64,000 nt of DNA from Magnetospira sp. QH-2 (GTDB lineage: Bacteria > Pseudomonadota > Alphaproteobacteria > Rhodospirillales > Magnetospiraceae): the NCBI RefSeq assembly GCF_000968135.1, contig NZ_FO538765.1, forward strand, positions 1,193,819 through 1,257,818, written 5' to 3'. Both the position numbers and the translations under genes were made by a program. Under the pieces are notes generated by a model. It was not told the origin of the DNA, searched no databases, and worked only from the letters and a program-made list of their open reading frames with translations. Shown here piece by piece: positions 7,770 to 59,758 of the stretch (position 1 is the stretch's first letter; each line of letters starts with the position of its first letter).

Positions 7770-8116
7770 AGGTATCGCGATTTATCGACGAGGAGGTGGC
7801 CGCCCAGGCCCCCAACGTGCAAGGCACGGATCACGGCTCATCCGAGCCGGTGGTCAATGTCTGCGGGGTCCTCGTGCATGCGGCGCCGGGCCAATCCGAC
7901 GCCGTTACCAAGATGCTTAACGATCTGCCGGGGGTGGAAATTCATGTTGCCAGCCCCGACGATCGCTTCGTTCTCACCATCGAGGACGTGGAAGACTGCA
8001 TGGCCAGCGAATGTCTGGCCGCCATCGCCGAAATGCCCGGTGTGATGAACTCGTCGCTCGTCTATCACCATTTTGAATCCAAAGACTCCATGGAACGGGA
8101 GGAGACCCCCTCATGA
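7766..8116 (+). CDS. napD: NapA maturation chaperone NapD
   Basis: A small cytoplasmic chaperone that binds the NapA Tat signal and helps cofactor loading. The ferredoxin-like fold is visible: [19 protein letters not shown] near residue 30, [19 protein letters not shown] in the middle, and [15 protein letters not shown] near the end. At 116 residues it carries an N-terminal extension of about 28 residues compared with the usual core. Both ends overlap neighbours by 4 bases (napF and napA), meaning tight translational coupling. Confidence 0.92.
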
Positions 8117-10626
8117 AACTGACCAGGCGTGATTTTGTAAAAGCCAATGCTGCCGCCGCGACCGCGGCCGTGGCTGGGCTGACTTTGAACTCCGAAACCG
8201 CCGACGCGGCCATGAAACGCCGCTCGAAGATCCGTTGGGACAAAGGCGTTTGCCGTTTCTGCGGCACCGGTTGTGGCGTGCTCGTGGGCACCCAGAACGA
8301 CCGTGTCGTCGCCACTCAGGGCGATCCCGATGCGCCGGTCAACAAGGGCCTGAACTGCATCAAGGGCTACTTCCTCTCCAAGATCATGTATGGCAAGGAT
8401 CGCCTGACCAGCCCGATGCTGCGCAAGAAGAATGGCCAGTTCGACAAAGAGGGCGATTTCGAGGCCGTTTCCTGGGACGAAGCCTTCGATGTCATGGCCG
8501 ACAAGTGGAAAGCGGCCATGAAGGCCAAAGGCCCGACCGCGGTTTCCATGTTCGGTTCCGGCCAATGGACGATCATGGAAGGCTACGCTGCCGCCAAGTT
8601 CATGAAGGCCGGTCTGCGTTCCAACAATATTGACCCCAACGCGCGTCACTGCATGGCCTCGGCCGTGGGGGCTTTTATGCGGGCCTTCGGGATTGATGAG
8701 CCCATGGGCTGCTACGATGATTTGGAGCATGCCGACAGCTTCGTGCTCTGGGGCGCCAATATGGCCGAGATGCACCCGATCTTGTGGTCTCGTCTTACCG
8801 ACACCCGCCTGACCAAGGAAGGCTGCGATGTGCACGTGCTCTCGACCTTTGAGCATCGCTGCTTCGAACTGGCCGACAACGGCATGGTGTTCACGCCGCA
8901 GACCGATCTGGCGATCCTCAACTACATCGCCAACTACATTATCGAGAACAAGGCCTACAACGAGGACTTCATCGGTAAGCACGTCAACTTCACCAAGACG
9001 GTCACCGATATCGGCTACGGCCTGCGTCCGGAGCATCCGTTGGAGAAGGCGGCCAAGGGCAAGGGCGGCAAGCTGACCAAGATCAGCTTCGAAGAATTCG
9101 CCGAGTCCGTGAAGCCATACACCTTGGAGTATACCTCCAAGCTGTCCGGCGTGCCGGAAGCCAACCTGCTCAAGCTGGCCAAGGTCTATGCCGATCCGAA
9201 CCGCAAGGTGGCCTCCTATTGGACCATGGGTTTCAACCAGCATACCCGCGGTGTGTGGGTCAACGGTCTGCTCTACAATGTGCATCTGCTGATGGGCAAG
9301 ATCTCAGAGCCGGGCAACAGCCCGTTCTCGCTGACCGGCCAGCCTTCGGCTTGCGGAACCGCTCGCGAAGTCGGCACCTTTGCCCACCGTCTGCCCGCCG
9401 ATCTGGTGGTCATGAACCCCAAGCACCGGGCCTTCGCGGAGAAGACCTGGAAGCTGCCCGAAGGCACCATTCCCGGCAAGCCCGGCTACCACGCCGTGTT
9501 GCAGCACCGCATGTTGAAGGACGGCAAGCTCAATTGCCATTGGGTCCAGTGCAACAACAACATGCAGGCCGCCGCCAACCTCAACGAGGAAAGCTACCCC
9601 GGCTATCGCAACCCGGACAATTTCATCACCGTTTCCGATCCTTATCCGACGGTCACCGCCCTGGCCGCCGACCTGATCCTGCCCACCGCCATGTGGATGG
9701 AAAAGGAAGGGGCTTACGGCAATGCCGAACGGCGGACCCAGTTCTGGCGTCAGCAGGTCAAGGCCGTCGACGGGGCCAAGTCGGACTCCTGGCAGGTGAT
9801 GGAATTCGCCAAGCGCTTCAAAGTGGAAGAAGTCTGGCCCGCTGAACTTCTGGACAAGATGCCCGAATACCGGGGCAAAACCGTTTACGACATCCTGTTC
9901 GAGAATGGCGTGGTCAACAAATTCCCGGTGGAAGACGTCAAGGATGGTGCGGGCAACTCCTATGACAAGGAAGACTCCGACCACTTCGGCTACTACGTCC
10001 ACAAGGGCATCTTCGAGGAATACCGGCTGTTCAATTCGGTGGCGGGCGTTCCGAAGAAGGGTCACGAGATGGCCGATTTCGACACCTACCACAAGGCCCG
10101 GGGCCTGCGGTGGCCGGTGATCGACAACAAGGAAACCCTGTGGCGCTTCCGCGAAGGCTACGATCCGCATGTGAATGCGGGCGAGGGCGTGAAGTTCTAT
10201 GGCAAACCGGACGGCAAGGCGAACATCATCTTCGCGCCTTTCGAACCGGCGGCCGAAAGCCCCGATGCCGAATATGATCTGTGGCTGTCCACCGGTCGTG
10301 TGCTGGAGCATTGGCATTCCGGTTCCATGACCCGGCGCGTGCCGGAACTGCACAAGGCGTACCCCAACGCGGTGGTCTTCATTCATCCCGAAGACGCCAA
10401 AAAGCGGGGTCTGCGTCGCGGCATGGAAGTCAAGGTCCAATCCCGTCGCGGTGAAGTTATCACCCGTGTCGAGACCCGTGGTCGCAACAAGGTTCCCGAA
10501 GGGCTGGTGTTCATGCCCTGGTTCGATGAAGGCCAGTTGGTCAACAAGCTGACCCTGGACGCCACCGATCCGCTGTCCAAGGAAACCGACTACAAAAAGT
10601 GTGCCGTCAGGATCGTCAAGGTCTAA
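8113..10626 (+). CDS. napA: Periplasmic nitrate reductase catalytic subunit NapA
   Basis: The molybdenum bis-MGD enzyme reducing nitrate to nitrite in the periplasm, with electrons from NapC through NapB. An N-terminal Tat signal ([12 protein letters not shown]) is followed by the 4Fe-4S motif [14 protein letters not shown]...CIKGY (about residues 47-80). The Mo-ligating Cys is in [10 protein letters not shown] near residue 180. The C-terminal MopB cofactor-binding domain ends with [14 protein letters not shown]. At 837 residues it is full length for the family. It follows napD with a 4-base overlap. A strong GC-rich hairpin lies after the stop, before napG. Confidence 0.97.
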
Positions 10627-23839: not shown

Positions 23840-25183
23840 TCATTCCGCTGCCTGGGCCGCAGAACCGGCACGAGCCTGTTCCTTGTCCGATGTCAAGATG
23901 GCGTAGACGAACACCAATGCACCCGCGACAACCACGACACCCGAGAGCAGTCGAAGGATGAAGAACAGGTCGATTTGTTCGGCAACCTCCATGAAGGAGA
24001 TCCCCATCACCCGTTGCAGGTGGGTTTGCAACACACCGGCAGCCGTCAAAGTCAGAGTCATGAACACCATTCCCGATGACATGATCCAGAAGCTCCACAT
24101 GTTCAGCACCTGGTTATAGGGCTGCATGCCGCGCAGCATGGGCATGGCATAAGTGATCATGGCCAGATTGAGCATCACATAGGCCCCGAAGAAAGCCAGA
24201 TGGCCGTGAGCCGCGGTGATTTGGGTGCCATGGGTGTAGTAGTTGATGGGCGCCAGGGTATGCAGGAAGCCCCAGACACCGGCCCCGAAGAACGCCAAAG
24301 TGGCGCAACCCAGGGTCCACATCATGGCCGCCTGATTGGGATGGTCGCGACCGCCCTTGCGGACGATGACGAAGGCAAATACCACCATGGCAAAGAACGG
24401 CAGCACTTCCAGGGTCGAGAACACGGATCCGATCCATTGCCAGTATGCCGGGGTACCAATCCAGTAGTAGTGATGGCCGGTGCCAAGAATGCCGGTGAAC
24501 AGGCTCATGGCAACGATGATATAGAGCCATTTCTCGATGATTTCCCGATCGACGCCGGTCATCTTGATCAACAGGTACGACAGGATGGAGGCCATGATCA
24601 GCTCCCACACGCCCTCGACCCACAGATGCACGACCCACCACCAGAACATCTTGTCCAGGGCCAGATTGGTCGGATTGTAGAAGGCAAACAGGAAGAAGAT
24701 CGCCAGTCCCCACAGGCCCATGAGCAAGATCATGGAAACCGCTGTTTTGCGGCCCTTGAGCACGGTCATGGAGAGGTTGTAGAGGAACATCAGCGCGACC
24801 ACCACGATGGCCACCTTGATCCAAAGGGGTTGTTCAAGGAACTCACGGCCTTCGTGGATACCAAACAGGTAGCCGACAACCGCCGCGGCGGCTCCAAACA
24901 GGAACAGCCAGAACTGGATCTTGGCGATCAGCGGGCTGTGAATCTCTGTCTCGGTTTCTTCCGGAATCAGGTAATAGGCCGCCCCGAAAAAGCCGAACAA
25001 CAGCCACACGATCAAGGCATTGGTATGGATCATGCGGATGATGTGAAAGGGCACCAATTCCGACAGGAAGTTGGGAAAGACATAGACGGTGCCGGCGATC
25101 AATCCGCCCAGAACCTGTGCCAGGAACAAGCCCATGGCAGCCAGGAAGTACGGATAGGCCAGCTTTTGTGTTTCATATTTCAT
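23840..25183 (-). CDS. norB: Nitric oxide reductase large subunit NorB
   Basis: A 447-residue, 12-helix haem-copper-superfamily protein that reduces 2 NO to N2O using electrons from NorC. Conserved segments include RMIHTNALIVWLLFGFFGAAYYLIPEE, WWVVHLWVEGVWELIMA (His for the active site and Glu near FeB), GTGHHYYWIG and THGTQITAAHGHLAFFGAYVM. Length is right for cytochrome-c-type NorB. Follows norC by 24 bases. Confidence 0.97.
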   Translation of the reverse strand: MKYETQKLAYPYFLAAMGLFLAQVLGGLIAGTVYVFPNFLSELVPFHIIRMIHTNALIVWLLFGFFGAAYYLIPEETETEIHSPLIAKIQFWLFLFGAAAAVVGYLFGIHEGREFLEQPLWIKVAIVVVALMFLYNLSMTVLKGRKTAVSMILLMGLWGLAIFFLFAFYNPTNLALDKMFWWWVVHLWVEGVWELIMASILSYLLIKMTGVDREIIEKWLYIIVAMSLFTGILGTGHHYYWIGTPAYWQWIGSVFSTLEVLPFFAMVVFAFVIVRKGGRDHPNQAAMMWTLGCATLAFFGAGVWGFLHTLAPINYYTHGTQITAAHGHLAFFGAYVMLNLAMITYAMPMLRGMQPYNQVLNMWSFWIMSSGMVFMTLTLTAAGVLQTHLQRVMGISFMEVAEQIDLFFILRLLSGVVVVAGALVFVYAILTSDKEQARAGSAAQAAE

Positions 25184-32679: not shown

Positions 32680-33426
32680 TCACGATTCCTCCCACATCTT
32701 GCCGGGGATGACCTCGATACAGGCCGGTTCCACCGGACAGATCATCTCGCACATGCCGCAGCCAACACAGGCCTCCAGAACTTTGGGCGTGCGCCGTTCG
32801 TCGTTGGGGTCATCACTCATGGGGACCAACGCGATAGCATTTTTGATTGGGCATTCTCGAACACAGAGATCACAGATGTCCAGATCATAGGGATGGTCGG
32901 CGATACGGATGGGGGTCCAGCGATCCACTTCCGCGTAACGGTGCAAACCCGGATGGGCAACCCCTCGGGCGGCGCCTTGAAAGCCCTTCCCCTTGCGTGC
33001 CAGACAGCTGTCCGGGCGGGTCAACTCGGCCAACCCCATGCGCACCTGTTCCTTCTTGTCGATGTCGTGACTCAAGGCGCCGGTGGGGCAGGCGAGCACA
33101 CATTGCACGGCGTCGCAGGAAAAGTCGCAGGCCTGATCCCGGGCCGGAACATAGGGGGCGCCAATCCCGAACCCGTCGAAGATGTCTCCCAAAACCACGG
33201 CTTCCACCGGGCAGACCTGCACGCACTGGCCGCATTTGATGCAAGAGGCGAGGAACTCCTTTTCGCTGAGGGCCCCCGGCGGGCGCAGGCGCGGGTTGGT
33301 CTTGGCCACCACCGGCAGGAATCCCGCCAGGGCGACACCGGTGACACCTGCTCCGGCGATCATGGCACGCAGGGCTTGGCGGCGGGCCCGCTGGGTGACG
33401 GGACCGGGAGTTTTTTTCTTGCTCAT
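32680..33426 (-). CDS. nosG: NosG, NapG-like periplasmic iron-sulfur protein
   Basis: A 248-residue protein with an exported N-terminus (RRQALRAMIAGAGVTGVALAG, Tat-like) and four cluster motifs: CIKCGQCVQVCP, CDFSCDAVQCVLACP, CDLCVRECP and CVGCGMCEMICP. Related to NapG; the neighbours nosD and nosH give the name. Overlaps nosD by 4 bases. Confidence 0.88.
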   Translation of the reverse strand: MSKKKTPGPVTQRARRQALRAMIAGAGVTGVALAGFLPVVAKTNPRLRPPGALSEKEFLASCIKCGQCVQVCPVEAVVLGDIFDGFGIGAPYVPARDQACDFSCDAVQCVLACPTGALSHDIDKKEQVRMGLAELTRPDSCLARKGKGFQGAARGVAHPGLHRYAEVDRWTPIRIADHPYDLDICDLCVRECPIKNAIALVPMSDDPNDERRTPKVLEACVGCGMCEMICPVEPACIEVIPGKMWEES

Positions 33427-34751
33427 GGGATGAGCCTGCCTTTGTTGGGGTCGTCCAGGCCGAAAGGATCATAGCGTCCGGTTTCGGTTGATGAGTCCGC
33501 GGATGAAGCGGCCGCTCTTTTGGTCAGTGGGGTAAATTCAGCGCTCATGCGGGGTTTTGCGTCGGCCAGCATGATCAAGGGTTCGGTAAAGGGGGCCAGC
33601 CTTTCCAGGAAATCCACCATGCTGAGCAAGGGCGTGCCGAGAAAGAAGGCGGCGGGAGGCACATCCATCCATATCCGGTCGGCAAACACTTTGGGCTTGT
33701 GGGGGCGGTCGCCGAAACCGTCCCCGTTCTCGTCGAAGCCTTCATAGTCGTCCCAGTAATTGCCTTCCCATTCATTGCGGGCGGCCCCGGCATATTCATT
33801 GACCGACACCTGCCGGATGTTGTCGATGAAACGGTTGTCCTTGACGAGATTGCCTTGCCAGTCGTTATGGAACAGCAGCCCGATTTTGGAAAAGGCGACG
33901 GTATTGCGATAGATCCGGTTGGTGGTATCCGGCTGAAAGGGTGAAACATCCAGATAGATCCCAGTGCCGCAATAGAGAATCTCGTTGTCGGTGATATCGG
34001 TATTGCTGGTTTCCTTCATGCCGATCCCCATGCCGGTGGCCCCCTGGGCATGGACGATACGGTTGCCGCGCAAGACCACATCATCGGAATACATCAAGAA
34101 GATGCCGACGGAATTGTCGCGGAAGCTGTTGTCTTCCACCAGATTGTACTTCGAATACATAAAGTGCAGGCCATAACGCCCGCCATGCACGCTGTTCCCC
34201 TTGATATGATTATTGGCCGAGTACCAAACCACCATGTCGCGGGTGTCGGTCACATGGTTATCCGCGATCTTGTTGTCACGGGAATACCACAGCCGGATGG
34301 CGTCGCCGCGCACACCCAAGTGAAAGGGCTTGGAGGTGATACGGTTGCGCTTGACGATGTTGTTGTTAGCCTGCTGCAGATCAACCCCGAACAGGCAGTC
34401 CTCGATAATATTGTCTCGAATCAGATTGTAATTGCCTGCCACCCGAACCCCGGAATCAATGTCATTGTGGGACTCGCCGGAGTTTCTGAGGGTGAAGCCA
34501 CTGACCGTCGCGCCGTCGGTTTCAATGGAGATGACCGTGCCTTTTCCGCCCGCGTCGATAATGACCTCGCCGTGGCCTTCCAGGGTAATGGGTTTGTCGA
34601 TGATCAGGGTTTCGTGATAGGTGCCCGCCGGAGGCCGGATCACGGCGCCCTTCTCCGCTTCATCGATCAAGGCCTGAAGGGACGGCATGGCCACCGCCGG
34701 GTGCCCAAGGAGCATCCCGGCGGTGACAATGATGAGTCCCAGTCGGCCCAT
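33423..34751 (-). CDS. nosD: NosD, periplasmic beta-helix copper-site maturation protein
   Basis: A 442-residue exported right-handed parallel beta-helix protein. Many short repeats carry N-rich turns (NNIVKRNRI, DNKIADNHV, YNLVEDNSFRDNSVG, WEGNYWDDYEGFDENGDG), typical of NosD/CASH domains. It works with NosFY to build the CuZ cluster of NosZ. A signal peptide ends near VAMPSLQ. Two bases separate it from nosB. Confidence 0.94.
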   Translation of the reverse strand: MGRLGLIIVTAGMLLGHPAVAMPSLQALIDEAEKGAVIRPPAGTYHETLIIDKPITLEGHGEVIIDAGGKGTVISIETDGATVSGFTLRNSGESHNDIDSGVRVAGNYNLIRDNIIEDCLFGVDLQQANNNIVKRNRITSKPFHLGVRGDAIRLWYSRDNKIADNHVTDTRDMVVWYSANNHIKGNSVHGGRYGLHFMYSKYNLVEDNSFRDNSVGIFLMYSDDVVLRGNRIVHAQGATGMGIGMKETSNTDITDNEILYCGTGIYLDVSPFQPDTTNRIYRNTVAFSKIGLLFHNDWQGNLVKDNRFIDNIRQVSVNEYAGAARNEWEGNYWDDYEGFDENGDGFGDRPHKPKVFADRIWMDVPPAAFFLGTPLLSMVDFLERLAPFTEPLIMLADAKPRMSAEFTPLTKRAAASSADSSTETGRYDPFGLDDPNKGRLIP

Positions 34752-37697: not shown

Positions 37698-39992
37698 CTA
37701 TTTCTTGACCTCGACGGCGCCGTTCTGCTCCAGGAAGGTTTTGGCGCGCAAGCCGATATCGGCGGCCTTGACCTGATACTGGAACCATTGTTGGGCCCAC
37801 AAGGTGCCGTTGTGCCAATCTTGCTTGGCGGCATAGTCTTCGGACTTCTTCTTGGCGTCAGCCGCGAAGCCGAGCTGATCGGTGGCATCCTCGACGAGGG
37901 CCACGACCGGCGCGAAGTCCTTGTAGTTACGCCCGACAATGAAGCCAACCACGCTGTCGATCACCGCTTGGGTGTCGTTGTTGGTCTTCACCTGCTTGGT
38001 GTAGTCCGCCTGGGCATAGATGCTGCCCTCCTTGAGCGCCGCCTTCTGGGCTTTCATACCCTTCGGACGAACCAGCAGATAGCCTTGCATTTCCAAGTGC
38101 AACGCCGAGCAGAACTCGGTGCAGTAGTACGGGAAGACACCCGGACGGTCGGCGACGAAAGTAGCCGAGACGGTTTTGCCCGGTTCCGCCGACAGGTTCA
38201 CGTTGTGCTCGTACAGAGCGAACCCGTGGGTTTCGTCTTCGGCCCGTTCCAGATTGGTGAAGTGCAGGGAGACGGTCTCGCCTTCTTCCACTTCGATGAT
38301 CTCGGGCGTGATGTGCGAGCGGATCAGGGTGCCGTAGACATGTGTCACGCCATCCTTCTTCTCGATCTTTTCACGTCCCGGACGCACCCGGTACGGGGAT
38401 TTCTCATCGGCACGGCTGTTCCAACCCACCTTGTAGCGGATATGGGGCTTCAGCTTGTCGGCCTTGATGGCGACGGCATAGTGCGGCTCGCCCAAGGGCA
38501 ACGGCATGTCGTAGAGCAATTCCATCTTGTCACCGGAGATGTCGATGAGCTGATGGTTCTGCGGATGCAGCGGACCCACGGGATTGAACCGGTCGATGGC
38601 CAGCTTGTTCAACGACACCAGGTACTTACCCTGCGGTGTGACGGAGTCCCCTTCCATGGTCATCAGGTGACCGATGTTGTAGTGGATGGAGAGCTTGTCC
38701 AGTACCTTGCCTTCGCAGTAGTTCCACTTGGTCACCTGGCTGTCCACGTAGATGGAGGTATAGACCACGCAGGGGGTGGAATCGTACTGGGTATGCAGCG
38801 GGCCGAGGCCGACCTGGAGCTGCAAGTGCAGCGACTTTTTCAGGTCGAGGATCGGGATCCCATAGGGGTCCTTGCCCGCGAAGTCCTTGCTATCGATCAG
38901 TTTTTTGATCTTCTCGAAGCTGTAGACCGACGCATGGGTGTCGAGCTTGCCGGCGACAATGATGAATTTGCCGTCCGGAGATACATCGACGCCATGGGGC
39001 GACTTGGGTTCCGGGATCAAGAACAGAATGCCTTCCTTGACCGCGGTATCCATGGTGATCACGTCATGGCCGTTGATCTTCGTGGTTTTGCCCGCCTTGA
39101 ACAGTTCGGCGGCTTTCTTCCAGTTGACCATGTGCAGGAAGTCGGTATCCTTTTGGGAACAACCAGCTTCGAACGGCGGGCGACCGGACTCGATGCCACC
39201 CACATAACGCTCGGTGCAGAAGGAGTTGGTGAACGACCAGCCATCGGACGGACCCTTACCAAAATCAGACAGATCCTGGCTGTAGGGCGGCAGTTCGACG
39301 GAGAAGGATTGATCCTGCTGGATGCGGCCCTTCTTGTTGTCGAACTTCCAGTAAGTGACAGCGCCACGGTACTTTTCGTTGAAATCGCTCAGCGGCACAT
39401 AGTCGTTGGTGAACGGCGCCGCATACTGGGTGGCCTCGATCACATAGTCGGTGTTCGGCGTGACAAAGGCACCACCGTGCTCCGATTTCATGATCGGGTT
39501 GACAACGATCTGCTTGGTCTCGAAGTCGGCGAGGTCAATTACCGCGATGCGGGGATTGGCCTTGTCGTTGATGAACAGATACCGGCCATCATATTCGCCA
39601 TTGGTCTCTGAAATCGCCGGATGGTGGGTGTCACCATAGGTGATGGTCTTGCCGTTGATCTTCCCCTGATCAAGAATCGCCTTGGATTCATCATCAAAAC
39701 CGTAGCCCTGCCAGGGTTCCGGCGTGAAGACGGCAACATATTTAAGAATCCGCATCGACGGAATGCCGTATACGATGACTTGTCCGCTTTGTCCGCCGGA
39801 ACTGAAGGCGAGGAATTCGTCGCGCTTGCCGGTGGGGACGTAGGTCTTAGCCGCCGCCAGGACGTCTTTCTGGGTCAGACCACGGTCTTTCATGATCTGT
39901 TGCAGATTGTCCTGGGCGGTGGAACCGGATGCTGCCAGGCCTACGCCTAGGGCAACCGCCAAGCCTACCGCTTTGGTTAGTCGTTGAGTCAT
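37698..39992 (-). CDS. nosZ: Nitrous oxide reductase NosZ (clade II-like)
   Basis: A 764-residue copper enzyme reducing N2O to N2 in the periplasm. The N-terminus is a Sec-type signal (no twin Arg), the mark of clade II. The beta-propeller carries the CuZ His ligands (YGDTHHPAISE, SEHGGAF, SPHGVDVSPDG, GLGPLHTQ, YNIGHL, GEPHYAV). The C-terminal cupredoxin CuA domain has YYCTEFCSALHLEMQG. A further 80-residue C-terminal extension (after LLVRPKG) is unusual against clade I. GAGGAAG precedes the ATG. An FNR-type box lies 166 bases upstream. Confidence 0.96.
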   Translation of the reverse strand: MTQRLTKAVGLAVALGVGLAASGSTAQDNLQQIMKDRGLTQKDVLAAAKTYVPTGKRDEFLAFSSGGQSGQVIVYGIPSMRILKYVAVFTPEPWQGYGFDDESKAILDQGKINGKTITYGDTHHPAISETNGEYDGRYLFINDKANPRIAVIDLADFETKQIVVNPIMKSEHGGAFVTPNTDYVIEATQYAAPFTNDYVPLSDFNEKYRGAVTYWKFDNKKGRIQQDQSFSVELPPYSQDLSDFGKGPSDGWSFTNSFCTERYVGGIESGRPPFEAGCSQKDTDFLHMVNWKKAAELFKAGKTTKINGHDVITMDTAVKEGILFLIPEPKSPHGVDVSPDGKFIIVAGKLDTHASVYSFEKIKKLIDSKDFAGKDPYGIPILDLKKSLHLQLQVGLGPLHTQYDSTPCVVYTSIYVDSQVTKWNYCEGKVLDKLSIHYNIGHLMTMEGDSVTPQGKYLVSLNKLAIDRFNPVGPLHPQNHQLIDISGDKMELLYDMPLPLGEPHYAVAIKADKLKPHIRYKVGWNSRADEKSPYRVRPGREKIEKKDGVTHVYGTLIRSHITPEIIEVEEGETVSLHFTNLERAEDETHGFALYEHNVNLSAEPGKTVSATFVADRPGVFPYYCTEFCSALHLEMQGYLLVRPKGMKAQKAALKEGSIYAQADYTKQVKTNNDTQAVIDSVVGFIVGRNYKDFAPVVALVEDATDQLGFAADAKKKSEDYAAKQDWHNGTLWAQQWFQYQVKAADIGLRAKTFLEQNGAVEVKK

Positions 39993-51442: not shown

Positions 51443-52141
51443 TCAGCCGCCTTTGGAAAGTGCCACGTCCACCGCCAGAATTTGTTCGGCTACGGAAATG
51501 GGGATCTCCGAGGTGATCTCCAGACCTCGGTCCTCAAACACATCGCTGCCCATATGCTCGAACTGCCAATCGCGAATGGCGCGGTCACGTTGTTCGACAA
51601 GCTTGGCGATTTGCGGCTGAAACAACTGCAGGATGGCGGTCAGCCAGATGTTCACCGGCCAGGAAGGAGGAACCATGTCCATCTCAAAGCGGTCGATCAT
51701 GGCGATCACATCCTCTGCGGCATACCAGTTTTCGGCGGTCACCCAGCGATTGGTGGTGAACAGCCCGATGGGGACGCCGGCATTATCCATGGAGATGGCG
51801 ATCAGGTGGCTCAGCTTGTCTTCGCGCTCGTCCATATAGGTCGCGTGGCTCTGTTCCACTGGCGCCATGCCCTTGGTCATGCCCGCAGCGCGCAGAAAGG
51901 TATGGAAGTGGCCATGCTCGCCGGTTCGATGGGCGTGATAGTAATACTGGCTGGCGCTGGCCGGGTCGAACACGTCGCCCGGCGGATAGTGATCATATTC
52001 GTAAAAGGTGCCCTGTCCCTTGAGCACCTCGCCGACAATGTTGTCGTCGGTTTTTTTTAGCACCCGCAGGCATTCGGTGATCCGGTCCCCAGCCTCGGCC
52101 ATGCGCTGTAGCCGGTCGCGGGGCAAGCCGTTGAGGTCCAT
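51443..52141 (-). CDS. His-rich conserved hypothetical protein
   Basis: A 232-residue, probably cytoplasmic protein. The notable motif is YYYHAHRTGEHGHFHTFLR near residue 70 with five His, suited to metal or haem binding, preceded by FYEYDHYPPGDVFDP. I do not recognise a characterised family. Start at MDLNGLPRD; the longer frame runs through the NPC-repeat gene in another phase and is not real. It follows the small NPC-repeat gene on the same strand, after a strong terminator. Confidence 0.7.
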   Translation of the reverse strand: MDLNGLPRDRLQRMAEAGDRITECLRVLKKTDDNIVGEVLKGQGTFYEYDHYPPGDVFDPASASQYYYHAHRTGEHGHFHTFLRAAGMTKGMAPVEQSHATYMDEREDKLSHLIAISMDNAGVPIGLFTTNRWVTAENWYAAEDVIAMIDRFEMDMVPPSWPVNIWLTAILQLFQPQIAKLVEQRDRAIRDWQFEHMGSDVFEDRGLEITSEIPISVAEQILAVDVALSKGG

Positions 52142-52198: not shown

Positions 52199-52228
52199 AA
52201 AAAAAACGGGCCGGCATGACCCGGCCCG
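52199..52228 (-). terminator. Strong terminator after small NPC-repeat gene
   Basis: Perfect 8-base stem CGGGCCGG/CCGGCCCG (52207-52228) with 6-base loop; on the minus strand it is followed by eight T residues. It lies 20 bases after the stop of the NPC-repeat gene and before the His-rich gene. Confidence 0.85.
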
Positions 52229-52248
52229 CTTGATTCCCGAAGCAAGGC

Positions 52249-52545
52249 TTACATGGGTTTGCAGGGATTCTTGGCGGCACAAGGGTTCTTGGCAGCACAG
52301 GGATTGTGCTTCGCCGCGCAAGGATTGCAGGGGTTGCACGGGTTGTACTTCTTCTTGGCGGCACAGGGATTGTGCTTGGCGGCACAAGGGCTGCAAGGAT
52401 TGTGCGCCTTTTTGGCCTTACAGGGGCTGCAATAGGCCAACTGCACAGGCATCTTGGCCTGGGCGGTGGGTAATGTATCGGTGGCGGCCGATCCGGCGAG
52501 AGCGGCGACACCGATGGCGGTGGCGGTGAGCGTTTCTTTGAACAT
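52249..52545 (-). CDS. Small exported Cys-rich NPC-repeat protein
   Basis: A 98-residue protein: signal peptide (MFKETLTATAIGVAALAGSA), then after VQLAYCSPCKAKK an array with eight Asn-Pro-Cys triplets and two SPC, mostly in the unit NPCAAK with Lys or His between. Half of the mature protein is repeat. Evenly spaced Cys with Lys/His suggests metal binding or covalent cross-linking in the periplasm. The same triplet array forms the N-terminus of the cytochrome P460-like protein upstream, so the two should act together. Confidence 0.75.
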   Translation of the reverse strand: MFKETLTATAIGVAALAGSAATDTLPTAQAKMPVQLAYCSPCKAKKAHNPCSPCAAKHNPCAAKKKYNPCNPCNPCAAKHNPCAAKNPCAAKNPCKPM

Positions 52546-52658: not shown

Positions 52659-53645
52659 TTATTTGCGCACCTCTTCGGGCAGGAACATCAAGGAGTCCTG
52701 ATCCTCGGCCACGGCGCCATGGCATTCGTGGCAGAAGGCCATGCCCGGATCGTTTTTGGCCTTGGTCTTACCGAACACCGATCCGTCGGGCAGAATCATG
52801 GTGTAGCGCCAGTCATCGGTGGCCTTGTTGAAGCCCGATGCCATCTTCTCCATGACAAACAGCGGTCCGACGCCCACCTTGCCGTGGGGCGAGACGGTGA
52901 AGCTGTCCTTGGCGATGACCGTTCCAGCCGGGGCCTTGCCGATGTTCTCGTATTGGCGATAGGCCGCCGCGCCGGTCTTGTTGACCCAATTGTTGACGTA
53001 GCGATCGCCATGGGTGGCCGCCTGATAGGGGGCCGTGGCGACATTATCCCAGCCGGTGTAATTGACCACCGAAGCCTCGCCGGACCCGCCATAGGCAGCG
53101 CGCATTTCCGGCAAGATGCACTTGTAGGCAGCCTGGGCTTCGGCGTTGTTCAACTCCGGAACCTCGGCGGCTCCGCCACAGGGATTGCAAGGATTGGCCG
53201 GGCCGCAAGGGTTCGCTGCGGCACAGGGATTCTTGGCCGCGCCGCAAGGGTTCGCTGCGGCACAGGGATTCTTGGCCGCGCAAGGATTGCAGGGGTTTTT
53301 AGTCGCACAAGGATTGCAGGGGTTTTTGGTCGCGCAAGGATTGCAGGGATTCTTCGCCGCGCAGGGATTGCAGGGGTGGCAGGACCCATGGGCCTTGGCC
53401 AACCGCGGCACCACGCAATGCTTGGACCAGGCCCCACCCGCCGCCGCACAGGGATTACAGGGATTGCAGGGGTTTTTGGCCGCGCAGGGGTTACAGGGAT
53501 TGCAGGCGGCGAGTTGCACCCCGTTCGCCGACTTGGCCTGGGCGGGCGTGTTGGCGGTGGTCAAGGCGCCAAGGACAATGAATCCGGCGGCGGCCAAAAC
53601 CGGCAACGCGGTCGAGGCTTTAAGGGTCAGCGGAAATGGGTGCAC
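52659..53645 (-). CDS. Cytochrome P460-like protein with N-terminal NPC-repeat array
   Basis: A 328-residue exported protein. Signal peptide to about residue 37 (TPAQAKS), then about 110 residues holding 18 NPC triplets ([28 protein letters not shown] units), then a cytochrome P460-type domain (about 160-325; [20 protein letters not shown]) ending with a c-type haem site [19 protein letters not shown]460 proteins oxidise hydroxylamine or NO-related species, or act as haem proteins of unknown role. The fusion with Cys repeats is unusual. Lys for the P460 cross-link cannot be assigned by eye. Confidence 0.75.
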
Positions 53646-54011: not shown

Positions 54012-54875
54012 ATGGGAAGCCTCAATAGCGCAATGCCAGACTCCGCCACCAAGGGCTCCAAGGGGGCCTCTTCGTCGGACAATTCCCTGTTTTCCTTCGG
54101 CGAAACGAGCCCAGCGCCCCGGCACCTCTTCCAGCCCCGCCCTTGCCCGCGCCGTCCCCGGACTTCGGCACGACGCCCGATTTCGGCGGCGGCTGTCATC
54201 TTATGGCTCGGACACCTCCCTGAGGGTGGGTCGCTGTTCGATGAGGTCCCAACCCTTCATCCTGAGCCCGTCGAAGGAGCCCCCGCGCCCTTGCCAGCGC
54301 CGACCCTTGCCGATCCCCTTGGCCAAGTCCGATGCGACCCCGACCCTCGGCGCCGATCCCACCGACCGCCAGACCCGGGCCTTCAACAAGCGCCAGGAGG
54401 CGGCCAACCTCAAGGCGGCCCGGGCCGATTCCGATGCCGCCTGGAAGTTCCATCAGGATAAGAAAGCCGCCGAGCAAAAAGCCGCCAGCCAGCGGATCCA
54501 GGCCCGCCGCCAGGCCAGGCCGCCGAACGCCAACAGGAGGCCCAGGCCCGCAAGACCCACCAGGCCCGCATGCAGGCCCAACAGGCCCAGGCAAAGCAGG
54601 CCCAAGCAACGCAGGCCCAGGCAACCCAGGCCCAGGCAACCCAGGCCCAACCCGGCTTCCTGGCCCGCAAGCTGGGCGTGACACCCGTGCGATCGGCGCC
54701 GCAACCGGCACCGCAACCCGCCATCCCGCGCAGGCCAGAGGAAACGCCCATCCGCGTCGAACAGGCCCTGGCCAAGAGCCCGCCACCACTCCAATCCGAT
54801 CCCGAGGATACCTGGGACGGCATGGCGCCGCCCAAGCCGGAGGAAATCCAAGCCATCCGCGACAAGCCGGTGGCC

Positions 54876-55145
54876 GCGCGCACCCATGCGGATCAGCGCC
54901 GCCTCCATTGGGCCGAGGATTACTGGACCAACGAGGATATCCAGACCGAAACCACCGCGTTCTACAAGCTCAACAGCGAAGTCGGCGCGCCCACGGGTCA
55001 TGCCACGGGCCATGCCCCCTTCGGCGCCGATGGCGCCCGCTCGGAAGACGCCAGGATCAACCGCCAGCGCGCCGACGATGTGATCAAGCGCCTCGGGCCC
55101 GATGCCGATCCGGACCATGTGCGCATGGTCGAGGCGCATTACGGC
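54876..55145 (+). repeat. 90-residue module, copy A
   Basis: Encodes ARTHADQRRLHWAEDYWTNE through GPDADPDHVRMVEAHYG. Nearly identical to copy B (57989-58258), shortened in copy C (58481-58687) and truncated in copy D (60381-60505). Likely a stalk or processing domain of the toxin family; no known fold recognised. Confidence 0.85.
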
Positions 55146-56087
55146 ATCGCCAACCCAGCCTCCGACGGCGGCGGCCTCTTGGGCGGTGACTGGGTCGACG
55201 CCCAAGGAAACTGGCACGACGATAAAGGCAATCGGATCGATCTGGAGTCCATCGGAACCAAGGGTCAAGCCGATGCGCCCAAGGTCCCGTTGATGGCCGC
55301 AGCTCAAGAACAGACACAAGGGACCGGACCGGCCACCGGCAACACGTCTTCCAGTTACCCCCATTCAGCGACAGGCTTTCAGCCCGCAAGCGCTACAGGC
55401 GCGCAGCCCTTTGTGACGAATTCGCAAACACAATCCTGGTCCGATATGGGGCAGGGAAAAGCCTACCAGCCGCCTGAAACCCAGGTGGCTCAGGCGAGTC
55501 CCCCGAATAGTCCCTTGCAGGCTCCGATTGCCCCCACGCAACCGCAATCACGGGCTGATAGAACATTTCAATCTTATCGAAAGAACTTGGCTCCAAGGGA
55601 AGGTGGTTATGCAAACCGCCCTCTCAGCGTTGACAAGGGTGGTCCTACTTTAAAGGGAATGTCGCAAAAAGCTTTGGACCAGTTCAGGCAAAATTCGAAA
55701 TGGAAACATCTGCCAAAGCAATCCAAGAATCTTACTAATGCTCAAATTGACCAGATATATCGGGTGGAATATTTTGATCGGCCTCAGCTCGACAAACTCG
55801 AGCAGGTACCCGGCCTTGCCCAAACAGCCCCACAATTAACAGAGCAGATCTTCGACGCAGGTGTCCAGCACGGGATCGAGGACGCGGGCAGATGGTTACA
55901 AGAGTCTCTTGATGAAGTACTTGGTACGGACCTTCGCGTGACAAATCCGAAAACAGGCCAAAAGAACTATGACGGAATTATCGGTTCTGGTACCCGAAAA
56001 ACTGTTGAACAGGCAGTGCAGGCGGGAAAAATCAAAGAAGTCAATAACCGAATTGCTGCTAAGAGTCGGACTCAGAAAGAAGCTTTC

Positions 56088-56977
56088 GAGTTCAATCTCT
56101 TGCTAGACGCCGGGTGAGCTGGCGTATACTGGCGATGGTAATCCAAGCGACGGCGCTTTCGATGGTCGCCTCGAAATCCTTGGCCAGTCTACGACACCGA
56201 CCGAGCCAAGCGAAGGTACGCTCCACGACCCAGCGCCGGGGTAGAACCTCGAAACCGTTTGCCGCATCGGAGCGCTTGATCACTTCAATGGTCCATTGTC
56301 CGATCTTTTCCAGCGCGCCGCGCAGCTTTTGTCCAGCATAGCCTCCGTCAGCGAAGACATGGCGTAGCCAAGGGAGGCGGCTGCGAAAGGAGGCGAGGAT
56401 CCCGGGAGCACCGTCGCGATCCTGGATATCCGCCTCGTGCACCATGACGGCAACCATGAAGCCTTCGGTATCGGTGACGATGTGACGCTTCCGGCCTTTG
56501 ATCTTCTTGCCTGCGTCAAAGCCCCGGGGGCCGCCGCTCTCCGTGGTTTTCACGCTCTGGCTGTCGATCACTCCGGCACTTGGGGAGGCCTCCCTGCCCA
56601 TCGCCTCGCGTGCCGCCATGACAAGATGATGATTGATCGTCGCCCACCGACCGTCGTCGCGCCAATCGTAAAAATATCCCTGTACCGTCGAATAGGGCGG
56701 AAAGCATTTCGGCAACAGTCGCCACTGACATCCACTCGCCGCGATATAGAGCAACGCATTGACAACCTCCCGCAAATCCGTCTCGCGTGGCCGACCCAAT
56801 CGGTTCGCCTCGGGTAAATGCGGCTCGATCCATTCCCATTCCTCTTGTGTCAGGTCGCTTGCATACCGGCTGTTGTTGCGCTCATACTTGGGACGAGTGG
56901 TCTCGGTCCACATCTTGTGTCTCCTTCATTGTTTGGTCACAACGATAGAATCACAAGTGACTGATTCCACTCAACTC
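56088..56977 (-). mobile_element. IS5-family insertion sequence
   Basis: About 890 bases. The transposase gene fills most of it. Proposed ends are GAGTT (56088) and its complement AACTC (ending 56977); a longer inverted repeat could not be confirmed by eye. The flanks (GCTTTC on the left, TTTTTCAG on the right) rejoin the muramidase reading frame, which supports the boundaries within a few bases. Confidence 0.75.
56092..56913 (-). CDS. IS5-family transposase
   Basis: A 273-residue DDE transposase. N-terminal DUF4096-type domain (EEWEWIEPHLPE, GRPRETDLREVVNALLYIAASGCQWRLLPKCFP), catalytic Asp residues in GVIDSQSVKTTE and VFADGGYAGQKL, and the Glu in RRWVVERTFAWLGRCRRL. Single intact frame, so the element may be active. 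Confidence 0.93.
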   Translation of the reverse strand: MWTETTRPKYERNNSRYASDLTQEEWEWIEPHLPEANRLGRPRETDLREVVNALLYIAASGCQWRLLPKCFPPYSTVQGYFYDWRDDGRWATINHHLVMAAREAMGREASPSAGVIDSQSVKTTESGGPRGFDAGKKIKGRKRHIVTDTEGFMVAVMVHEADIQDRDGAPGILASFRSRLPWLRHVFADGGYAGQKLRGALEKIGQWTIEVIKRSDAANGFEVLPRRWVVERTFAWLGRCRRLAKDFEATIESAVAWITIASIRQLTRRLARD

Positions 56978-57835: not shown

Positions 57836-57988
57836 ATGCCTGAGATGACCACAGTTGGCCTGGATCTGGCCAAAACCGTCTTCCAATTTCATGGCGCCGA
57901 TGAGGCGGGCCGTCCGGTCTTGCGCAAGAAGCTGCGGCGCCCCCAGCTATAGGGTTATTTTTCCGGGCTTGAGCCCTGCCTGGTGGCC
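57836..57988 (+). mobile_element. IS110-type transposase N-terminal remnant
   Basis: The frame from 57836 gives MPEMTTVGLDLAKTVFQFHG, then AGRPVLRKKLRR, the RuvC-like start of an IS110 transposase, with a stop at 57950 and further homologous codons (YFSGLEPCLV) up to about 57988. There the sequence switches to toxin module copy B. The preceding 260 bases (57576-57835) contain no gene and probably include the left end of the element. Confidence 0.75.
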
Positions 57989-59758
57989 GAGCGCACCCAT
58001 GCGGATCAGCGCCGCCTCCATTGGGCCGAGGATTACTGGACCAACGAGGATATCCAGACCGAAACCACCGCGTTTTACAAGCTCAACAGCGAAGTCGGCG
58101 CGCCCACGGGCCATGCCACCGGCCATGCCCCCTTCGGCGCCGACAGCGCCCGTTCGGAAGACGCCCGGATCAACCGCCAGCGCGCCGATGATGTGATCAA
58201 GCGCCTCGGGCCCGATGCCGATCCGGACCATGTGCGCATGGTCGAGGCGCACTATGGGGTGGGGGAACCGGCCCGAGCGGTCTCCATGGATGAGCAGGGC
58301 AATCGGTATGATGCCCAGGGGAATCTGATTGATCAGAATACCGGGAACGATTCCATGCATAATGCAAGAACGCTGGAGTATGTTCCCGGCCGGGACGATA
58401 CGCCGCCCATAGACCTTCTCTATCGCCCCGGCGAAGATCCCGGCACCGGCATGCCGGTGGACACGAACGGCGGGAAGGGCGATATCCAGACCGAAACCGC
58501 GTTCTACAAGCTCAACAGCGAAGTCGGCGCGCCCACGGGCCATGCCACGGGCCATGCTCCCTTCGGCGCCGACAGCGCCCGTTCGGAAGACGCCCGGATC
58601 AACCGCCAACGCGCCGACCATGCTATCAAGAGCCTCGGGCCCGATGCCGATCCGGACCATGTGCGCCTGGTCGAGGCGCATTACGGCCTTTTGCCGAAAC
58701 AGGAATCACAAGATACCCTCGGCGGCACGGATGGAACTGACACCTTTGGGGGCGGGGATGGAGACGATAGCCTGATCGGCGGTTCCGGCCATGACGACTT
58801 GTCCGAGGGCTCCGAGGTCCCTAACGACCAGACTCAGCCAGCACCCACTCCCGAAGATGAGTCGTACTTCGACCGCAAAACCTACCGCCAAGCCATCGAG
58901 GAACAGCGGTTGGCCTCCTGGCTCGCCGGAGGGGGGCAGCGCATCGCCGACAACCTCTCCGAAGCCTATGACCAATGGGACCCGAAATGGTCTGATCTCT
59001 ACGAGATCCCGGGCTCCATGCTGAGGTCTTTCAGCAACGACATCAAAGACGCCATCGAGAACCCGGAGGACCCCTCGAAAACCCTGCCGCTGGCGCTCGA
59101 AGCAACGGGCCTCGGCGGCGCCTTCAGCCGCCTTCCCAAAGCCCTGCCGGACGGCGACGTGCTCGGCATGAGCGGTGGGCGCGGCACCTTCCAGGGGACG
59201 AAGAAGACCTGGACCCAACCCCGCGCGCCGCGCCCGGGCGAATGGGAGGCCCCGGACGGAGACCTGGACACGGGCGACATGGAGGTCATCGATCTGCTGA
59301 ACCAGGGCGGCTCCCGACCCGGCCAGCCCGCCACCGGCAACCGCAATCCCGGGGGGATTCATAACCCGGATGGCATAGGGGTTGCCCATGCGGATCGGCG
59401 GCATGTGGTCACTGAGGAATATCTGGACCACCGAATTCGAACAGATGAAAAATCAAAAGGGGTAGCGTCAACCTATATCAACCAGGACTTTGCCAACAAG
59501 GCTACGACGCCTGCGGTCAGGAATGACATGCACAAAGCGAAGCGTGGAAAACACGGTAAATACGAGATTGTCACGGATCTTAATATGACAATTGGATACG
59601 TAAAGGGCTCGAAAACCAAGCGGGGAGGGAACGGAGAAACAGTGTATATCCCCCACGGAAAACCCCAGCCAACCTCACGTGTAAAAGTAGTTTTTTCGCC
59701 CGACTCCTCTAGGGCTTATGGTGTTCATATCATAACATCCTACCCGGTGCTGCCTTAG
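57983..59758 (+). CDS. Polymorphic toxin-like protein with RTX-like repeats and RNase A-like C-terminal domain
   Basis: A 591-residue protein, likely 5'-truncated: it begins at an IS110 junction with module copy B (3-92), has copy C (167-235), then an RTX-like Asp/Gly stretch (GGGDGDDSLIGGSGHDDLSE, about 252-275), a helical middle (about 285-360), a Pro/Gly-rich hinge, and a C-terminal domain (about 466-591). This tip has HADRRHVVTEEYLDHRIRTD, STYINQDFANKA and a closing VHIITSYPV, matching the pattern of bacterial RNase A-like (CdiA-CT/BECR-type) toxins. The tip is AT-richer than the stalk. The next gene looks like its immunity protein. No export signal survives at the present start, so it may be a displaced cassette. 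Confidence 0.7.
   Translation: MAERTHADQRRLHWAEDYWTNEDIQTETTAFYKLNSEVGAPTGHATGHAPFGADSARSEDARINRQRADDVIKRLGPDADPDHVRMVEAHYGVGEPARAVSMDEQGNRYDAQGNLIDQNTGNDSMHNARTLEYVPGRDDTPPIDLLYRPGEDPGTGMPVDTNGGKGDIQTETAFYKLNSEVGAPTGHATGHAPFGADSARSEDARINRQRADHAIKSLGPDADPDHVRLVEAHYGLLPKQESQDTLGGTDGTDTFGGGDGDDSLIGGSGHDDLSEGSEVPNDQTQPAPTPEDESYFDRKTYRQAIEEQRLASWLAGGGQRIADNLSEAYDQWDPKWSDLYEIPGSMLRSFSNDIKDAIENPEDPSKTLPLALEATGLGGAFSRLPKALPDGDVLGMSGGRGTFQGTKKTWTQPRAPRPGEWEAPDGDLDTGDMEVIDLLNQGGSRPGQPATGNRNPGGIHNPDGIGVAHADRRHVVTEEYLDHRIRTDEKSKGVASTYINQDFANKATTPAVRNDMHKAKRGKHGKYEIVTDLNMTIGYVKGSKTKRGGNGETVYIPHGKPQPTSRVKVVFSPDSSRAYGVHIITSYPVLP
57989..58258 (+). repeat. 90-residue module, copy B
   Basis: Near-identical to copy A over its whole length (differences include Gly to Ser in FGADSARSED). 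It is joined to the IS110 remnant at a short GGTGGCC microhomology also present before copy A. Confidence 0.85.
58481..58687 (+). repeat. 90-residue module, copy C (N-terminally shortened)
   Basis: Starts at DIQTETAFYKLNSEVGAP, lacks one Thr and the first 20 or so residues of the module, and ends GPDADPDHVRLVEAHYG. Tandem with copy B within the same protein, separated by about 74 unrelated residues. Confidence 0.85.

Follow-up and report, generated by a model that had tools for sequence, protein, structure and literature searches.

Asn-Pro-Cys Arrays, Many Joined to a Cytochrome P460 Domain, and Their Frequent DUF6969 and FGE-Like Partners in Proteobacteria

Introduction

Bufferins are Sec-exported cysteine-rich proteins that are modified by MNIO enzymes, the family responsible for their maturation, and a few bufferin chimaeras carry cytochrome c and FGE-sulfatase domains, according to the part of the source that we consulted (PMC12452194; section 14 for the chimaeras). 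The Asn-Pro-Cys (NPC) triplet is itself found in CdeC, a spore protein of C. difficile described in the consulted parts of two papers as having a 6-NPC repeat and many cysteines (PMC7677010; PMC6101409). CdeC self-assembly is redox-sensitive and partly disulfide-dependent; the NPC-bearing fragment 1–100 multimerizes and forms no inclusion bodies, and the NPC-free fragment 206–405 also multimerizes (PMC7677010, in part). In cytochrome P460 of Nitrosomonas europaea, Lys70 is cross-linked to the haem and Glu96 provides the distal carboxylate, and the counterparts of these residues in cytochrome c'-beta are Phe61 and Gly82, the Lys-Glu spacing being 24–26 in the three P460s of the same table (Table 2 of PMC11928373, consulted in part).

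The window studied here, by which we mean the whole 64,000-nucleotide stretch analysed, encodes a protein that joins a long NPC array to a P460-like domain. The first-pass annotation had described an exported array of 18 NPC triplets ahead of such a domain and had stated that no protein of this plan was known. The count of 18 proved exact and the N-terminus is signal-like, so that export is predicted. Neither the plan as a whole nor an NPC-array system was found described in open-licence PMC text, but the repeat itself has the precedent of CdeC (as seen in the consulted parts of the papers). The fusion is real; it is not, however, a one-off, as it recurs in many relatives.

Results

The Fusion Gene and Its Surroundings

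The fusion protein contains exactly 18 NPC triplets and one HPC, with 25 Cys, 21 Lys and a single CxxCH motif (table 1). Its composition predicts only 0.24 NPC triplets, and the highest number reached in 10,000 shuffles was 4. The 18 triplets use six different codon spellings, indicating that the repeat is maintained at the protein level and not at that of DNA alone; in view of this variety and of conservation across 81 loci, we rejected a frame artefact or a DNA-level repeat. By a hydropathy/AxA rule, the start is signal-like in 74 of 81 fusions (the window's and the best 80 of 263 relatives) and in all 28 small NPC proteins.

Table 1. Features of the window discussed in the text (empty cells, nothing reported)
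Feature	Position	Strand	Remarks
NPC-array / cytochrome P460 fusion protein	52659..53645	(-)	328 aa, GTG start
Predicted Sec signal peptide (by eye)	53535..53645	(-)	about aa 1-37, AQA before K38
NPC array, 18 NPC	53178..53501	(-)	aa 49-156, broken at aa 68-88 by SKHCVVPRL stretch
PF16694 cytochrome P460 match	52704..53060	(-)	aa 196-314, E 3.3e-7, 31.2 bits against cut-off 27
Lys246, position of the P460 haem-cross-linking lysine	52908..52910	(-)	invariant in 81/81 (best 80 of 263 relatives and window)
Glu266, putative distal carboxylate position of active P460	52848..52850	(-)	from a weak alignment (E 0.075)
CHECH haem c motif	52719..52733	(-)	aa 305-309
Second NPC-array protein, 98 aa, 8 NPC, signal-like start	52249..52545	(-)	directly downstream of fusion
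Rho-independent terminator-like hairpin, 11 pairs and T run	52204..52231	(-)	z -4.2
DUF6969 protein, 232 aa, no signal-like start	51443..52141	(-)	PF22308, 2e-84
NosZ propeller	37698-39992		window protein scan
NosD	33423-34751		window protein scan
COX1-family protein	23840-25183		window protein scan
Molybdopterin oxidoreductase	8113-10626		window protein scan

Two genes that the first-pass annotation had passed over, those of the second NPC protein and of the DUF6969 protein, lie downstream on the same strand. The terminator-like hairpin falls between the NPC gene pair and the DUF6969 gene, and both NPC genes may consequently share a transcript that stops ahead of DUF6969. A full denitrification set had also been placed "beside" the fusion; four such genes are indeed in the window, in which 20 proteins were scanned for domains, but the nearest ends about 12.7 kb away, which makes the word a loose one.

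NCBIfam gave no match for the fusion, the second NPC protein or the DUF6969 protein of the window. A phmmer search of the PDB with the whole fusion returned seven trefoil-type designs in which no stretch was significant by itself, and a tblastn search against plasmids matched nothing. An anti-phage role was rejected, as PADLOC had no match for the four proteins tried.

A (K/R/H)C-x-(I/V)-P-R-L motif lies inside or borders the array in 30 of the 81 fusions, the window's (53382-53444) and 29 others, and may serve in recognition or docking. FGE target motifs are of the CxPxR type; we rejected the array insert as such a target because it reads C-x-x-P-R and is present in the window genome, which has no such FGE. 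Elsewhere in the window, a 591-aa frame at 57983-59758 (+) ends in a bacterial CdiA-CT RNase A domain (PF18431) and likely encodes a polymorphic toxin, and at 54570-56117 (+) a Glycosyl hydrolase 108 domain (PF05838) follows N-terminal QAQAT-type repeats with a 15-base period.

The Haem Domain

The P460 homology proposed by the first-pass annotation is upheld by a PF16694 score above the cut-off and by the c-type haem motif (table 1); when two relatives were scanned with PF16694, one was above the cut-off (L151, 33.5) and one below it (L044, 23.7). Among the 81 fusions (window and best 80 of 263), CxxCH is kept in all and Glu occupies position 266 in 77. Tyr207, His212, Arg215, Trp279 and Tyr281 are also invariant in the 81-row alignment.

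The P460 alignment drew on 42 of the 81 sequences. Searched against the PDB, the family profile gave no match at E 0.01 and, at E 10, only cytochrome c'-beta 7ead (0.075) and an unrelated chain (1.2); with a stand-alone P460 as query, 7ead was again the only structure reached within the family (E 0.014). In the weak alignment with 7ead (E 0.075), Lys246 stands opposite Phe61 and Glu266 opposite Gly82, and on the basis of this one match the fused domain resembles a P460, perhaps one that is active, rather than a c'-beta. The two positions are 20 apart in the window fusion and 21 in 7ead.

Stand-alone P460 proteins devoid of an array adjoin the fusion in ten loci (L050, L059, L064, L065, L066, L090, L094, L099, L100, and L107), with Glu at the corresponding position in nine and Lys in one. 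Among stand-alone P460s from the class that are more distant (L187-L191), five of five have the cross-link Lys, with Thr or Val at the Glu position.

Relatives of the Fusion and Arrays with Other Attachments

A scan of genome contigs yielded 449 stretches, 263 of which encode relatives of the fusion. We examined 81 fusions, namely the best 80 of these 263 plus that of the window; the 80 kept loci come from Alphaproteobacteria (Rhodospirillales, Kiloniellaceae, Sneathiella, Anderseniella, Hyphomicrobiales, and others) or are assigned to Proteobacteria only, and they include isolates of Sneathiella, Aestuariispira, and Pelagibius; the locus of Aestuariispira insulae (L058) has FGE-like and DUF6969 genes close by, and that of Sneathiella glossodoripedis (L049) a DUF6969 gene. 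In this set of 81 (best 80 of 263 and window), the NPC array always precedes the CxxCH domain and counts 8 to 57 NPC (median 22), an additional NPC ORF is present in 32 loci, DUF6969 in 43 and an FGE-like protein in 42 (both in 34, either in 51), these neighbor counts being affected by the many loci that end at contig boundaries. Of the 42 FGE-like genes, 35 lie on the opposite strand, with a median separation of 118 bases.

The search for NPC-array proteins and their fused domains that the first-pass annotation had proposed recovered arrays joined to P460, SoxA/TsdA-type, and phosphatase-like domains as well as arrays alone. Arrays without P460 adjoin DUF6969 and an FGE-like gene in L118, L119, L139, L141, L142, and L144, and DUF6969 in L116, L117, L128, and L135, where the FGE gene is absent from the fetched stretch. 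In L132 (9e-7) and, in another class, L207 (4e-15), the array is fused to a SoxA/TsdA-type cytochrome c (PF21342), a plan that L131, L133, and several others resemble by eye, and at L134:2276-3124 (-) a short array (4 NPC) is fused to a DSP-PTPase-like phosphatase domain with DUF6969 adjoining. The array is thus the common element, and P460 is one among at least three attached domains.

In another class, 17 of the 20 stretches sampled have an NPC frame, and 11 of these loci, 10 from one family, were picked by hand for linkers and neighbors; L219, which belongs to a different family, was left out, as were six whose setting was of the DUF6969 type or of another kind. Their NPC linkers contain 24% Lys, 22% Met, and 9% His, as compared with 47% Ala, 19% Lys, and 16% Cys in the alphaproteobacterial fusions. 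A multihaem cytochrome cluster is present in 11 of the 17 NPC-bearing stretches, the same 11 used for the linkers, an arsenite methyltransferase cluster in 7 of the 11 loci, and an ArsS cluster in 5, family names that come from the scan of L207 only (NF008823 and TIGR04167 above their cut-offs). At L205, L206, L207, L209, and L214, the arrays adjoin ArsM and ArsS (arsenosugar) cluster genes together with the multihaem cytochrome.

Among the 81 loci (best 80 of 263 and window), a PF04143 sulfur transporter cluster is near 18 and a DUF302 cluster near 8, each cluster being named from one scanned member. A cupredoxin-like protein, recognized by eye (no Pfam family over its cut-off), is also encoded near the NPC genes in 16 of the 81 (e.g., L056:6343-6837), often together with the PF04143 cluster.

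Co-occurrence of Arrays and Partner Proteins

Of 100 relative genomes, which partly overlap with loci L033-L112, 33 were matched by BLAST, and the removal of three in which only the P460 part matched (G008, G061, and G077) left 30 NPC genomes, including G052 and G076, kept despite just 3–4 NPC per ORF. With the small NPC protein as query, 26 of the 100 were matched, the sole new one (G098) being a weak 28% match that was not counted. NPC genes found by reading only (G012, G072, and G082) were kept out of the main tests. DUF6969 was scored in 38 genomes and the FGE-like subfamily (E 1e-60 or better) in 24.

By Fisher tests, which take genomes as independent, both families are strongly associated with the arrays: DUF6969 is present in 25 of the 30 NPC genomes versus 13 of the 70 others (p 1.2e-9), and the FGE-like subfamily in 23 of 30 versus 1 of 70 (p 1.8e-15). 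By genus (61 genera), the corresponding figures are 14 of 17 versus 6 of 44 (p 8e-7) and 12 of 17 versus 0 of 44 (p 4e-9); by family (31 families), NPC coincides with DUF6969 in 13 (p 6e-6) and with the FGE subfamily in 11 (p 4e-6). The sole FGE genome with no BLAST-detected array, G072, has an NPC gene beside the FGE gene on reading, and five genomes (G018, G038, G054, G078, and G089) have no NPC frame in the 9–12 kb around their FGE gene, which indicates that the FGE-NPC link is not only one of gene order. Three of the 13 DUF6969 genomes without a BLAST-detected array have one on reading, so that 10 of 38 remain, and 5 of the 30 NPC genomes have no DUF6969. The window genome has no FGE-like protein of this subfamily; we therefore rejected FGE as an obligatory partner.

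In a phylum-wide sample of 299 genomes, 55 were matched, and after dropping five P460-only matches (G376, G280, G305, G198, and G146) and keeping the weak G107 and G367 we counted 50 NPC genomes. DUF6969 occurs in 11 genomes of this sample, 8 of them with NPC (p 4e-5); of the other three, one has an AEGCC repeat adjoining (L172), one a short SPC/NPC array (L175), and one nothing similar (L171). The repeat at L172:2210-2506 (-), built of AEGCC/AEGC units after a hydrophobic start and 71 bases from DUF6969, is a different Cys repeat, and DUF6969 may thus serve other Cys arrays as well. The FGE subfamily, scored on at most eight candidates per genome, occurs in 14 genomes of the sample, 10 with NPC (p 4e-6) and 4 without; 13 of the 14 belong to one family, of the other class, in which a search for DUF6969 gave no match. 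Taken with the window genome, this family indicates that neither partner is universal.

The MNIO enzymes behave differently. They are present in 38 of the 100 relatives, in 4 of 30 NPC genomes versus 34 of 70 others (p 0.0008, a single post hoc test), or in 5 of 33 NPC genomes if G012, G072, and G082 are added. By genus, they are found in 1 of 17 with NPC versus 22 of 44 (p 0.001), and by family the effect is absent (6 of 14 vs. 9 of 17, p 0.72). NPC arrays and MNIO enzymes thus tend to avoid each other. The window genome itself (G000) has no MNIO enzyme (PF05114), and the two other genomes of its family (G001 and G002) have MNIO and no NPC, DUF6969, or FGE-subfamily match. Neither window NPC protein has a Pfam match to DUF2282 (Buf1) at E 1.

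The Partner Proteins

In an alignment of 31 DUF6969 sequences (30 of the 43 and the window protein), 35 columns are invariant, among them His51, His69, His71, Glu75, His78, His80, and His112. The structure predicted for DUF6969 is confident (pLDDT 91, pTM 0.90); its best PDB matches were at E 0.92 with Foldseek and at Z 3.5 (5.2 A over 54) with VIA-align, and a profile search of the PDB hit a tRNA ligase alone (0.26), poor matches that do not establish a new fold. A hydrophobic N-terminal stretch is found in 1 of 43 DUF6969 proteins versus 40 of 42 FGE-like proteins, and DUF6969 is probably cytoplasmic. No paper naming the family was found in open-licence PMC text.

The FGE-like partner matches PF03781 at 1.4e-42, and its model (pLDDT 88) superimposes on ToxD 7spq (Z 25.7, 2.5 A over 235), CalU17 6vqp (Z 25.4, 3.0 A over 237), PvdO 5hha (Z 24.6, 2.7 A over 222), and FGE 2q17 (Z 24.0, 3.3 A over 234). 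A GGSWDDxGCGxC motif is present in 39 of the 42 alphaproteobacterial proteins, its CGxC being invariant in the 35 of 42 clustered proteins that were aligned. In 9 of 9 other-class loci, CGxC is down to one Cys, which weakens the case for canonical FGE-type copper chemistry; the Cys pair was therefore rejected as proof of it.

Discussion

A Proposed Role for the Arrays

We tentatively favor, at somewhat below even chances, the reading that these proteins are exported thiol-rich arrays that bind soft metals or metalloids, are serviced by DUF6969 and often by an FGE-like protein, and hold a tethered P460 haem. Export is predicted from the signal-like starts, and we infer metal binding, modification, and haem activity. 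The array would be a flexible, thiol-dense chain that could bind soft ions such as Cu(I), As(III), or Hg(II) outside the cytoplasm, by analogy with metallothioneins and bufferins. Before export, while the chain is still cytoplasmic, DUF6969 would act on it; the FGE-like protein, where present, would act outside the cytoplasm, and both would probably modify, protect, or load the array cysteines. The P460 domain would place a c-type haem next to the array as a redox or gas-binding center and, judging from its cross-link-position Lys and putative distal carboxylate, may serve in that same compartment as a hydroxylamine oxidase or an NO binder.

The conservation of the fusion plan in 81 of 81 cases (best 80 of 263 and window) and the co-occurrence with DUF6969 and FGE-like proteins support this reading. 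The mutual avoidance of NPC arrays and MNIO enzymes, from a post hoc test with no effect by family, and the published bufferin chimaeras (PMC12452194) also count in its favor. Met and His are copper ligands. The Met/His-rich linkers and the arsenic-cluster genes in the 11 other-class loci argue for metals; on the other hand, all of the arsenic genes were seen in a single family and might reflect shared gene order, no metal-responsive regulator was seen, neither partner is universal, and the PF04143 clusters near 18 of 81 loci could indicate sulfur instead. For the array, the first-pass annotation had suggested copper or iron binding, a thiol-rich scaffold, or a site of modification; on the whole, the partners found in relatives favor metal handling with possible maturation.

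The array might instead be a disulfide scaffold that forms cross-links to itself and to the small NPC protein, either in the oxidizing periplasm or at the surface, with the haem held in the network and metals irrelevant. CdeC, with its NPC repeat and disulfide-aided assembly, provides a precedent, notably the multimers formed by its NPC-bearing fragment (PMC7677010, in part); the fusion and small NPC genes often adjoin, and the Ala, Lys, and Gly linkers fit an extended chain. Yet the multimerization of the NPC-free CdeC fragment and the absence of inclusion bodies with fragment 1–100 mean that the NPC part is not singled out in the consulted part of that paper. The scaffold would also leave unexplained both the co-occurrence with DUF6969 and FGE-like proteins and the Met/His-rich linkers beside arsenic genes in the other class, and we consider it unlikely.

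A further possibility, which we rank just behind the scaffold, is that the P460 domain is the business end, as a hydroxylamine oxidase or NO binder, and that the array serves as a tether, or as a sink for S-nitrosothiols, and has spread by repeat expansion. The residues retained at the two positions of Table 2 (PMC11928373, in part), the Glu kept by nine of the ten stand-alone P460s adjoining fusions, and the denitrification genes of the window would all suit such a role. The Glu assignment, however, comes from the E 0.075 alignment, the Lys-Glu spacing is shorter than in the Table 2 P460s, and Glu is replaced in all five of L187-L191; the same partners also accompany arrays that lack P460, which is therefore not what defines the system.

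Improbable, finally, is a sulfur carrier whose cysteines would hold persulfide or thiosulfonate sulfur to be handed on by the attached cytochrome, as in SoxYZ with SoxAX: the arrays fused to SoxA/TsdA-type cytochromes and the PF04143 and DUF302 clusters point that way, but no Sox protein is among the 20 window proteins scanned, the domain attached in the window is a P460, and the transporter cluster is missing at most of the 81 loci.

The metal-binding reading can be extended to a bolder proposal, which we regard as rather unlikely although ahead of the scaffold: NPC arrays would be the substrates in a new class of post-translationally modified, Sec-exported metal-binding proteins that does not depend on MNIO, with DUF6969 modifying Cys in the cytoplasm, an exported enzyme of the FGE fold able to act later, and haem domains (P460 or SoxA/TsdA-type) added as redox partner. 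Such arrays would fill the bufferin niche, which would explain why NPC and MNIO rarely share a genus.

What looked like one odd gene thus becomes a recurring system in which Cys arrays, combined with at least three types of attached domain, go together with two partner families, and it may represent a little-known bacterial way of handling toxic or scarce metals. The frequent genomic partnering with NPC arrays also offers a direct handle on DUF6969, a Pfam family that has no assigned function. Should the arrays prove to bind metals, by themselves or once modified, they would be another solution to the problem met by bufferins, with a P460 haem tied in.

Comparison with Known Systems

The window domain shares with the cytochrome P460/c'-beta superfamily its PF16694 score, the CxxCH motif, and a Lys at the cross-link position, but differs in sitting behind a long NPC array. 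With CdeC, the fusion has in common the NPC repeat and many cysteines; in the consulted parts of its descriptions, however, NPC makes up a small part of CdeC and no haem domain is mentioned for it, and the CdeC motifs CCRQGKGK and CNECC are absent from the window fusion. The FGE-like partner has the PF03781 domain and, in its predicted model, the fold of the formylglycine-generating enzyme, whereas the human Cys336/Cys341 pair (as given in PDB titles) is replaced by CGxC (spacing 3) or by one Cys. Bufferins and oxazolins, as far as the consulted part of their description goes, offer the likeness of a Cys-rich, predicted-exported protein beside a candidate cytoplasmic enzyme, together with chimaeras. 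The window NPC proteins nevertheless differ from bufferins in their repeat and in having no DUF2282 match, and their genome has no MNIO enzyme; it is DUF6969 that is, instead, the frequent neighbor of NPC arrays.
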